The translations under genes were made by a program, and so were the position numbers. A model generated the notes under the pieces. It made no database searches, was not told the origin of the DNA, and was given only the letters and a program-made list of their open reading frames with translations. This document shows positions 60,675 to 64,000 of a stretch of 64,000 nucleotides of DNA, one piece after another. This stretch comes from Dermabacteraceae bacterium TAE3-ERU27 (GTDB lineage: Bacteria; Actinomycetota; Actinomycetes; Actinomycetales; Dermabacteraceae), in NCBI GenBank assembly GCA_019218415.1, contig JAHUUL010000002.1, positions 1-64,000 of the forward strand. Reading direction: 5' to 3'. The first letter of the stretch is position 1. Each line of letters opens with the position of its first letter.

Positions 60675-60747
60675 GGGGCTATGGCGCAGTTGGTAGCGCG
60701 CTTCCATGGCATGGAAGAGGTCAGGGGTTCGATTCCCCTTAGCTCCA
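60675..60747 (+). tRNA. tRNA-Ala (anticodon GGC)
   Basis: Acceptor GGGGCTA pairs with TAGCTCC (one G-U); anticodon stem CTTCC/GGAAG encloses ATGGCAT, anticodon GGC for GCC/GCU. The T arm is GGTTCGATTCC. CCA is not encoded. Confidence 0.95.
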
Positions 60748-60814: not shown

Positions 60815-61351
60815 GCTTATTACCGCGGGTTTCTGGCGGCTGGTCTGATTGCGCTGCGGCGATATCAGCTAAATTATTGGCTTCCGCCAAAGGGGATTGA
60901 TTCATGTTTCCTAGCGCCCCCTATATAGCTGACAGGCTGACCCACGTATTGTCGGGTCGAGGTCAGGTGTTGCATGAAGGGAACGCCATCCTCCTGATCC
61001 CATCTGGTCCAGGCTGGGTTATGCGCCTGACTGTGAGCCCAGAAATAGTCCGTGTGTTCACGGGGTTGGGTGTGCGTATCTTGGTCGGCGAAGATAGTCC
61101 AGGCGACCTGGATCCCCTCGAAGCGCGCGTTCCTCGCAGTGACGGTTCTACGCATCAAGACCAACCGTAACCGTCGGGAAAAGGAAAAGCCGCGCGAAGA
61201 ACGCCGCAAGGCGCACGAGAGGGGCATGTCGCTACACGCCGGCAGCTAACTCTGCGGCCTCCAGAGCCATTTTGATCGCCACTTCTTGCGCCCCTCGATA
61301 CTTACTTGTTCACATTTCTAACTTTCCCCTTGTTCTCTGCACTACCAGGAG
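60815..61351. other. Gene-poor, lower-GC stretch downstream of tRNA-Ala
   Basis: About 540 bases without a convincing gene. A plus reading frame of 88 codons (60904-61170) and an overlapping minus frame of 117 codons (60874-61227) are both open; neither has a ribosome site or recognised family. A second plus frame (to 61249) is rich in Arg/Lys/Glu, as if a frameshifted continuation. On minus, a 24-codon piece ending at 61232 (RGAQEVAIKMALEAAELAAG, then V and stop) looks like the end of a decayed gene. A decayed insertion next to a tRNA is possible. Confidence 0.45.
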
Positions 61352-61357
61352 TATCAT
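61330..61357 (+). promoter_or_regulatory. Candidate promoter of the metPS leader
   Basis: TTGTTC (61330-61335), 16 bases, TATCAT (61352-61357), then seven bases to the ATG at 61365. A transcript starting on that ATG would be leaderless. Confidence 0.5.
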
Positions 61358-61364
61358 CAACAGT

Positions 61365-61406
61365 ATGTTCAAGATGGTCGAGATTATGAACGGGTGCGCA
61401 GGCTAG
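61365..61406 (+). CDS. Candidate Met-containing leader peptide of metPS
   Basis: A 13-codon frame, MFKMVEIMNGCAG, then TAG. Three of its first eight codons are Met. It lies 58 bases before the metPS terminator hairpin's end and its last codons form one arm of a hairpin. The only ribosome-site-like AGGAG is 13 bases upstream, too far, but a TATCAT -10 seven bases upstream fits leaderless translation. Typical of an attenuation leader; not shown to be translated. Confidence 0.5.
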   Translation: MFKMVEIMNGCAG

Positions 61407-61468
61407 AGAAGCCGCGTAGCCGCCGTCTTGCGCACCCACCCTTCACGCAAAGCAGTGAAGGGTTTTTT
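61388..61468 (+). promoter_or_regulatory. Candidate transcription attenuator before metPS
   Basis: Hairpin A pairs GGGTGCGCA (61392-61400) with TGCGCACCC (61429-61437). Directly next, ACCCTTCAC (61438-61446) pairs with GTGAAGGGT (61455-61463), followed by TTTTTT: an intrinsic terminator. An alternative fold pairs GAACGGGTG (61388-61396, one bulged base) with CACCCTTC (61437-61444), which would destroy both hairpin A and the terminator. The switching strand lies in codons 8-11 of the leader peptide. Confidence 0.6.
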
Positions 61469-61506
61469 GTTTGCCCAAACACACCACAAGACCAGGAAGA
61501 ATTCCC

Positions 61507-63060
61507 ATGTCTAACACCCCCGTCAGAGAAGTCTGGTCATCGCGTACCGTCTTCTTGGCAGCCGCCATAGGCTCGGCTATCGGCCTAGGCAACATCTGGA
61601 GGTTCCCCTACATCGCCTACCAAAACGGTGGCGGCTCGTTCCTCATTCCCTACGTCATCGCCCTCGTCACCGGCGGCGTGGCGATGCTCTTCTTTGACTA
61701 CGCGATCGGCCACCGTTTCCGTGCCGCCCCGCCGCTCGCTTTCGCGCGGATACGCCGCTGGGCGGAGCCGTTCGGCTGGGTGCAGACGCTCATCACGTTC
61801 TTCATCGCCGTCTACTACATGGCGATCCTGGCCTGGGCTGCTTTCTATACCTACTACGCGGCAACGCTGGCCTGGGGAGACGACCCCGACAAGTTCTTCT
61901 CTCAGGAATTCCTACAGGCCGACACCGCGCACGTGCACACCGGAACCTTCATCCCGGGCCTCACCGTGGTGCTGGCCATCCTCTGGGTGGTTTTGCTCCT
62001 CGTCATGTCTCTCGGAGTGGAACACGGCGTGGGGGCGGTATCCCGCTACGCGGTGCCCGCGCTGGTCGTGCTGTTCCTGATCATCACGGTGCGGGCGCTC
62101 ACCCTGCCGGGCGCCGCGCAAGGCCTGGACGCGCTGTTCACCCCCAACTGGTCGGCGCTGCTTGACCCGACGGTGTGGATGGCGGGCTACGGCCAGATCT
62201 TCTACTCGCTCGCCGTCGGCTTTGGAATCATGCTGACGCAGGCCTCCTACCTGAAGCGGCGCACCGACATCACCACCACCGCCTGGACGGTCGCTTTCGC
62301 GAACTCCTGCTTCGAGGTAATGGCCGGCATCGCGGTGTTCTCCGCGCTAGGCTTCATGGCGCAGCAGAGCGGCGCGGCCGTGGGTGACGTCGTCTCCTCC
62401 GGCATCGGCCTGGCCTTCATCGCCTTCCCCAAGATCATCTCCACCATGGCGGGCGGCCCGTTCTTCGGGGTGCTGTTCTTCGGTTCGCTCTTCCTGGCGG
62501 GCTTCACCTCCATGTTCTCCATCATCGAGGTACCGATCTCGGCGTGCATGGACAAGTTCAAGTGGGGCAGGAAGAAGGCGGTTGTGGTCGTCGGCTCCAC
62601 CGCTGCGCTGTTCTCCCTGGTGCTGCTGCCCACCACCACGGGTCTGGCCACGCTCGACATCATGGACCGCTTCATCAACGTCTTTGGCATCGTGCTGATC
62701 GCCCTACTCACGCTGGTGATAGTCGGTTGGGGAGCGAAAATGTTCCCGGTGCTTTCCCGCCACCTCGATGCCCGCTCTACCATCCGCACCCGCGGCTGGT
62801 GGACGGCCGCCGTCGGCGTGCTGACCCCGGCGGTTCTCGCGGTTACTTTCTTCGGCAACGTGAAAGAGCTCCTCGCCAGCCCTTACGAGGGCTACACCGG
62901 GCCGCAGCTCCTAACGTACGGCTGGGTGCTGGCTGCGGTGATCTACACCGCCGCGCTGGTGTTCACGTTCGTGCCCTGGCATAAGGACACCGATTTCTCC
63001 CTGCCGGAGGAATTCTGCAACGAGGAAAACACCCCGCCGGTAGAAAACTGCGCGCACTGA
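61507..63060 (+). CDS. metP: NSS-family methionine/alanine importer, large subunit
   Basis: A 517-residue sodium-dependent transporter of the neurotransmitter:sodium symporter family with about 12 helices. The N-terminal FLAAAIGSAIGLGNIWRFPY, then IAYQNGGGSFLIPY, is the family's substrate/Na+ site. I chose ATG 61507 (MSNTPVREVW) with AGGAAG eight bases upstream; a TTG at 61471 lies in the terminator tail. The tiny metS gene follows, as in Corynebacterium MetPS, which imports methionine and alanine. Expression is probably controlled by the upstream attenuator. Confidence 0.9.
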   Translation: MSNTPVREVWSSRTVFLAAAIGSAIGLGNIWRFPYIAYQNGGGSFLIPYVIALVTGGVAMLFFDYAIGHRFRAAPPLAFARIRRWAEPFGWVQTLITFFIAVYYMAILAWAAFYTYYAATLAWGDDPDKFFSQEFLQADTAHVHTGTFIPGLTVVLAILWVVLLLVMSLGVEHGVGAVSRYAVPALVVLFLIITVRALTLPGAAQGLDALFTPNWSALLDPTVWMAGYGQIFYSLAVGFGIMLTQASYLKRRTDITTTAWTVAFANSCFEVMAGIAVFSALGFMAQQSGAAVGDVVSSGIGLAFIAFPKIISTMAGGPFFGVLFFGSLFLAGFTSMFSIIEVPISACMDKFKWGRKKAVVVVGSTAALFSLVLLPTTTGLATLDIMDRFINVFGIVLIALLTLVIVGWGAKMFPVLSRHLDARSTIRTRGWWTAAVGVLTPAVLAVTFFGNVKELLASPYEGYTGPQLLTYGWVLAAVIYTAALVFTFVPWHKDTDFSLPEEFCNEENTPPVENCAH

Positions 63061-63076: not shown

Positions 63077-63208
63077 ATGTCTCTATCTGCAATCGTCATG
63101 ATGGTCGTCTACCTCGGGGTAGTCGGTGGCGGCTTAGTTGCGGGTGCCGTAGTGATGGCTACGCACCCCGACGAAACCGCCGGAGAGCTCGCGGTAAACG
63201 AGAAATAA
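63077..63208 (+). CDS. metS: Methionine/alanine importer small subunit MetS
   Basis: A 43-residue single-helix membrane protein: MSLSAIVMMVVYLGVVGGGL, then VAGAVVMATHPDETAG and a short polar end. Small MetS subunits are required with MetP for methionine uptake in Corynebacterium. TAGGAGGAAAAGAC gives a strong ribosome site. It is 16 bases after metP and too short for many gene finders. Confidence 0.88.
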   Translation: MSLSAIVMMVVYLGVVGGGLVAGAVVMATHPDETAGELAVNEK

Positions 63209-63353: not shown

Positions 63354-64000
63354 CTACTCCCAGCTCGCCTTGGCGGGATCCGTCCCGTGCGCCAGGGCAT
63401 TCGCGTTGATGGCGGCCGATAGCCACTCGCTCAGACCCGGGCGCAGGCTCTCGTAGCGGGAGGTGAAACGCTCATCGGCCAAATACATGCGTCCGAGCAG
63501 AACCTGCTTGGCATGGGTGACCTCGAACATGGCACTTAGCGCTTCCCGGTATTCCTCCGCCAAAGCCATCCCCTCTACGCTGTCGGGGGCGATACCGGAA
63601 GAAACTGCCAAGGCACAGCGCTCCTCGATACCCTTCAAGCGATCCGCAAATGCCTGCCAATCAGAGCTGCTCATTCGTGCCTGTCGTTGCTGGCTAACCT
63701 GCCAGTCATGGGTATCTCCCCATTTTTCTGCCGCCTCTTCGTCCCAGGCCGGGTTCCATTCTTGTCCCAGGATCTCGGCTCTCTCTGCCACGCTTACCGG
63801 TGTTTTGGTCATTTCTTTCTCCAATAGCTGCTCTACTGCGGTGATCTTTTTCGTCAGGGTTTCCCGCTGCGCCAACAGCAACTCAAGCTGGCTAACCAGA
63901 TGCTCTTGCGGCGAGGCGGGGCTATCGAGCAAAAGCCTGATTCTGGCAAGCGCCATGCCCGTTTCCCTGTAAACAAGTGCCCTCTGCAAGCGTTCCACGT
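63354..64000 (-). CDS. MerR-family regulator with TipAS domain (partial)
   Basis: About 215 residues of a gene whose 5' end, including the start and most of the HTH domain, lies beyond the window. The beginning ALVYRETGMALARIRLLLDS is the end of a MerR DNA-binding domain, followed by a coiled-coil dimerisation helix (QLELLLAQRETLTKKITAVE). The rest is a TipAS antibiotic-recognition domain (AEKWGDTHDW, GMALAEEYREALS, MYLADERFTSRYESLRPGL). TipA-type regulators bind thiopeptides or related ligands and induce export genes. Ligand and targets unknown. Confidence 0.88.
   Translation of the reverse strand, partial: VERLQRALVYRETGMALARIRLLLDSPASPQEHLVSQLELLLAQRETLTKKITAVEQLLEKEMTKTPVSVAERAEILGQEWNPAWDEEAAEKWGDTHDWQVSQQRQARMSSSDWQAFADRLKGIEERCALAVSSGIAPDSVEGMALAEEYREALSAMFEVTHAKQVLLGRMYLADERFTSRYESLRPGLSEWLSAAINANALAHGTDPAKASWE

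Follow-up and report, generated by a model that had tools for sequence, protein, structure and literature searches.

An amino-acid importer gene of Dermabacteraceae bacterium TAE3-ERU27 is preceded by a short leader that appears, from its sequence and conservation, to be a real and functional RNA switch; the kind is known, its target is new. In our judgement it is probably a leaderless, ribosome-mediated attenuator of the branched-chain type known from ilvBNC, here placed on a sodium-dependent importer of the NSS family and responding to isoleucine. The isoleucine reading is drawn from the invariance of the isoleucine codon at position 7 of the leader frame, where the methionine codons vary, from the kinship of the leader with those preceding ilvB and citramalate synthase genes, and from the lack of isoleucine, valine and leucine synthesis genes in most of the hosts. 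A first-pass annotation of the window (the whole stretch of 64,000 nucleotides analysed here) had proposed a methionine-responsive attenuator. It located the promoter-like elements, the frame, the hairpin and the terminator correctly, and its proposal that a ribosome attenuates expression of the importer is probably right as well; all 12 leaders compared keep the frame with its start and its stop.

The leader locus and its relatives

The features of the locus are as follows.

61330-61335, plus strand: -35-like TTGTTC, read from the sequence; weak, and missed by a consensus scan
61352-61357, plus strand: -10 element TATCAT (TAnnnT)
61365-61406, plus strand: leaderless leader frame MFKMVEIMNGCAG with stop, 13 codons; start-to-core distance and in-frame stop kept in relatives
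61366-61377, plus strand: region 1, leader codons 1-5, candidate anti-antiterminator (minimum-free-energy fold; in some relatives more complementary to region 4 than shuffled sequences are)
61383-61388, plus strand: putative regulatory codons Ile7 (AUU) and codon 8 (AUG, Met, in the window), from the 12-leader comparison
61392-61402, plus strand: region 2, 5' arm of the main stem, antiterminator-like (covariation)
61410-61422, plus strand: region 3 (minimum-free-energy fold; helix 2:3 not significant by shuffling)
61427-61437, plus strand: region 4, 3' arm of the main stem, adjoining the terminator (covariation)
61438-61469, plus strand: intrinsic terminator, stem 61438-61463 and U-tract 61464-61469, in all relatives
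61507-63060, plus strand: NSS-family sodium-dependent amino-acid importer, MetP-like (NF037979), the regulated gene
63077-63208, plus strand: MetS-like small subunit gene (NF033494, at 44.6 bits where the cut-off is 70)

The TTGTTC and TATCAT elements are separated by a spacer of 16, and 7 nt lie between TATCAT and the ATG at 61365, so placed that a leaderless transcript is expected to start at 61364/61365. A consensus sigma-70 scan of the leader region called no promoter, and the promoter call therefore rests on conserved spacing and not on consensus strength. Indeed, a TAnnnT element lies 6-7 nt ahead of an in-frame start in all 12 related leaders, compared with 7.6% per shuffled upstream region, which bears out the leaderless leader peptide proposed earlier.

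The comparison set consists of 12 metP leaders including that of the window, several of them near-identical and about 7 to 9 clearly distinct; the other 11 lie upstream of close metP relatives in Actinomycetaceae and in the sister species of the window. All 12 share the same design, with TAnnnT, 6-7 nt, a start codon (ATG or GTG), a short frame, a stem and an abutting terminator. The frame is 13-15 codons long and in phase with a core, ATTATKARCGGG, every time: the distance from start to core is 18 or 21 nt, a multiple of three in each leader, and a stop follows soon after the core even in the two leaders that have diverged most and whose neighbouring bases are altered. The frame foreseen upstream of metP in related genomes is thus kept in 12 of 12.

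Could the frame be incidental, with the conserved ATTATKARCGGG and the stems forming a riboswitch that binds a ligand directly? The core stretch AUUAUKARC is conserved as nucleotides and is unpaired in the predicted untranslated fold; no synonymous change from AUU to AUC occurs among the 12 metP leaders, and the stretch may therefore be kept as RNA sequence and not as codons. Against this, the start and the stop remain in frame with the core though their own sequence and the start distance vary, and the branched-chain codons in the leaders of relatives vary with the pathway regulated. No Rfam family matched the metP leader, nor the ilvB and citramalate-synthase leaders that were tried, in agreement with the earlier remark that no known SAM or methionine riboswitch is present. 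We regard a riboswitch as highly improbable. Searches of plasmid and phage collections gave no DNA match.

The amino acid probably sensed

The peptides encoded by the metP leaders are MFKMVEIMNGCAG (the window), MFAMIEIINGCAG, MLRKSLEIISGCAG, MLRKSTEIISGCAG, MLRKSLEIMSGCAG, MLGTGLEIISGCAG, MTYASLLIISGYAG, MTLQDGLIISGCAGL and MSNANLIISGHARIS, and they end in LIISGCAG or EIINGCAG before the stop. In the numbering of the window (leaders with the 21-nt start distance have the same codons one position later), Ile7, an AUU and the first codon of the core, is found in 12 of 12 leaders; codon 8 is Ile (AUU) in 9 and Met in 3. Each metP leader carries only 2-4 branched-chain codons, fewer than ilvL.

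The methionine reading holds that read-through is set by how fast the ribosome passes Met codons 4 and 8, or by leaderless initiation dependent on fMet. It draws on the window frame, which has Met at positions 1, 4 and 8, on the annotation of the importer, by analogy, as a methionine/alanine importer, and on the 7 of the 12 leader genomes that lack a methionine-synthase (MetE-type) domain. But the methionine codons, whose conservation upstream of metP relatives had been expected, are present in a minority of leaders (Met4 in 3 of 12, Met8 likewise in 3), a MetE-type domain is encoded in the genome to which the window belongs, and the relatives of the motif that were checked all precede branched-chain genes, bar one of unclear context. 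Methionine as the signal is accordingly quite improbable.

The kinship of the leader was traced with a covariance model built from metP leaders alone (R1), which was scanned against 213 Actinomycetaceae-like genomes and against 395 of the class. Its matches outside metP numbered 7 in the class genomes (5 ilvB and 2 citramalate synthase); in the Actinomycetaceae-like genomes they were the leaders of 3 ilvB genes and a single orphan. The orphan (L085; G576:C136:1490-1579, minus strand) encodes MASILIRRRAGT and a stop, and immediately downstream of it no branched-chain gene was recognised. Enlargement of the model with the ilvB and citramalate-synthase leaders so found (R2) gave matches in 170 of the 395 class genomes; 22 further loci were fetched, 20 of them before ilvB and 2 before citramalate synthase.

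Citramalate synthase serves isoleucine only. Its leaders resemble the metP leaders in their Ile-Ile codons, in a near-identical peptide end, and in having the same stem and terminator, and they differ in that the gene regulated is biosynthetic. The endings seen are TIICERVG, ATIISGRVG and LIIGLRVD, each before a stop, and ATIISGRVG nearly equals the LIISGCAG of metP. Leaders of this kind with Ile-Ile codons and the shared stem and terminator are L108, L109, L118 and L126, for which a search of one paper library found no published description. In the ilvB leaders of the class, Val, Leu and Ile codons are mixed, as in VVVIRRAG or LILVLGRRAA, and the class-wide matches include leaders such as MQSNSLILVLGRRAAH. 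Moreover, ilvB has been kept in G466, an Arcanobacterium-type genome from the genus with most of the metP leaders, where it stands behind a leaderless leader, MNTVLVVVVIQPSR (L087), in which TAGACT is followed by 7 nt to the start; no MetP-like importer was matched in that genome.

A related possibility is that the same architecture senses branched-chain amino acids in general, or simply the general speed of translation. The mixed codons of the class ilvB leaders would fit such a signal, as would the leucine that often stands ahead of the isoleucine pair (LII, LLII, LEII) and the Val5 of the window frame. This broader signal is unlikely, considering that the Ile codon is the only invariant one and that the nearest leader peptides are those of the isoleucine-specific citramalate synthase.

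The metP leader resembles several characterised systems. In C. glutamicum ilvBNC, the start codon lies one nt from the transcript start and there are three hairpins, with an anti-antiterminator over the first codons and an antiterminator touching the terminator, and Val codons of the leader matter (PMC11857589). The C. ulcerans ilvB leader is an experimentally supported attenuator (PMC10272879). The Corynebacterium ilvBNC leaders (IlvL; ilvB-II motif; PMC11857589, PMC10272879) resemble the design predicted for the metP leader in having a transcript that begins on the start codon or beside it, Ile, Leu and Val codons, a hairpin over the frame, an alternative fold that masks the first codons, and an antiterminator that touches the terminator. 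In contrast, the gene behind the metP leader is an importer and not acetolactate synthase, and the leader itself is shorter with fewer branched-chain codons and in most sequences has a main stem that abuts the terminator without overlapping it. Leaders of ilvB in Streptomyces, Mycobacterium and Corynebacterium likewise have a short Ile/Val/Leu frame near a terminator, in a published set that concerns ilvB and leuA and includes no transporter (PMC1262725). Published work on the codons points both ways: changing candidate codons in the S. coelicolor ilvB leader had no effect, according to work cited in that paper (PMC1262725), and this counts against the isoleucine reading. The same paper also contains candidate cysteine-gene leaders.

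A further parallel is offered by the polycysteine leaderless short ORFs that lie upstream of cysteine genes in mycobacteria. There, too, an amino acid is sensed through the codons of a short frame without a leader; the codons and genes involved differ from those of the metP leader, and there is no intrinsic terminator.

RNA folding and the proposed switch

For the 105-nt leader the computed folding energy is -45.9 kcal/mol (z = -4.65), a stability that none of 200 shuffles reached. Its main stem has 11 bp, 61392-61402 with 61427-61437, and thereby extends the hairpin drawn originally, whose core pairs GGGTGCGCA (61392-61400) with TGCGCACCC (61429-61437). Stem variants GUGC, GUGU, GUAC and GCAC each occur with a matching partner strand, and among 11 metP sequences 4 pairs are changed on both sides, a number reached in 2 of 500 shuffles. 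In a class-wide alignment with the ilvB and citramalate-synthase leaders, 12 of the 16 pairs of stem and terminator are double-changed (0 of 500 shuffles), with a covariation score of 0.460 against 0.223 in shuffles, the alignment being model-fitted, which favours covariation. The strong terminator described earlier begins directly after the hairpin, with T6 behind its stem.

When the RNA is untranslated, a different structure is predicted in 8 of 9 full-length leaders: leader codons 2-5, in region 1, pair with the 3' arm of the main stem, and the sequence behind the stop codon takes up region 2. The exception, L004, retains the main stem. In the minimum-free-energy fold of the window RNA, region 1 contributes the pairings 61366-61368 with 61432-61434 and 61370-61377 with 61423-61430, and region 3 pairs through 61414-61418 with 61395-61399, 61420-61422 with 61391-61393, and 61410-61413 with 61401-61404. 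Shuffling lends helix 1:4 moderate support, with individual p values of 0.001 to 0.67 in 8 leaders (the helix is absent in L004) and a p of about 1e-3 when the 7 clearly distinct leaders are combined by hand. Helix 2:3 was not significant in the shuffle test (combined p = 0.16) and is weakly supported.

Ribosome positions were imitated by masking the RNA. In each of the 7 distinct leaders, a ribosome with its A-site at Ile7 still allows a shortened main stem, and one that has reached the stop codon prevents it; one codon beyond Ile7 the stem is much reduced. In equilibrium folding no ribosome state removes the terminator, which persists in every state computed. This persistence is not decisive against attenuation, because the terminator of the proven C. 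ulcerans ilvB leader persists in the same calculation.

How the main stem might oppose the terminator was considered in several forms. The original proposal was an alternative pairing of 61388-61396 with 61437-61444 that breaks the terminator; it can be drawn, but in partition-function calculations, which cover the window, L004, L005 and L006, the number of pairs expected for the window RNA between region 2 and the 5' arm of the terminator is only 0.00-0.13, a negligible amount. A pseudoknot of 1:4 plus 2:5 was unsupported and was dropped. An antiterminator of the ilvB-II type (PMC10272879), between the main-stem loop and the 3' arm of the terminator, amounts by eye to about 3-6 bp and is not uniform.

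The model that we favour is as follows. Transcription would start on or beside the AUG. If Ile-tRNA is plentiful, the ribosome would reach the stop codon inside the hairpin and block the main stem, and the terminator would halt RNA polymerase. When isoleucine is short, the ribosome would stall at the AUU of codon 7, covering region 1 and freeing most of region 2; the main stem could then form beside the terminator, and more transcripts would read through into the importer. Untranslated RNA would adopt a third state, also off, in which region 1 pairs with region 4 and region 2 with region 3, resembling the C. glutamicum anti-antiterminator. The stalling, the direction of control and the way in which the main stem hinders the terminator are steps that we infer.

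The importer, its host and the meaning of the proposed switch

The importer had been named metPS and taken to carry methionine and alanine. Its assignment as a MetP-like NSS importer stands; the name metPS is not established, since the adjacent MetS-like gene scores below the cut-off of the MetS equivalog (NF033494) and so falls short of the C. glutamicum type of MetPS. The C. glutamicum namesake MetP imports methionine and alanine.

A sister strain, Dermabacteraceae TAE3-ERU5, has the MetP-like protein at 99% identity, and the copies of Actinomycetaceae (Actinomyces vulturis, Arcanobacterium, Boudabousia and strain TAE3-ERU4) are 73-78% identical to it. The host has a second NSS importer (G000:C1:257776-259254), the family's own copy, which is 50% identical to that of the window. 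By these comparisons the window importer was probably acquired horizontally, together with its leader. A tRNA gene at 60675-60747, about 0.6 kb upstream of the importer, is a possible integration point. Between it and the leader lies an 88-aa frame (60904-61170) without a family match, and convergent with the importer operon is an open frame on the minus strand (63354-63998) that we take to resemble a MerR/TipAS-type regulator.

Acetolactate synthase (TIGR00118) and ilvC are both absent above cut-off from the same 11 of the 12 genomes with a metP leader, a clade-bound auxotrophy of few clades that does not represent 11 independent events; the remaining genome (G451) has both ilvB and ilvC. Acetolactate synthase is present in 182 of the 213 Actinomycetaceae-like genomes. 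With the ilv genes missing and a MetE-type domain present, the host of the window probably must import isoleucine, valine and leucine, and may be able to make methionine.

Perhaps, then, an NSS importer retained or took over a leaderless attenuator of the isoleucine pathway in bacteria that had lost branched-chain synthesis, and the attenuator later moved between families with that importer, which would be a misnamed isoleucine transporter; we hold the chances of this history to be about even. If the isoleucine reading is true, the leader is an isoleucine-sensing switch on uptake, and the likely substrate would be corrected for a transporter family annotated by analogy as methionine/alanine importers. 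The leaderless attenuator of the ilvB type would extend to transport and to citramalate synthase, and, with such leaders found by R2 across the class, the codons of a leader could be used to predict the amino acid that is sensed.
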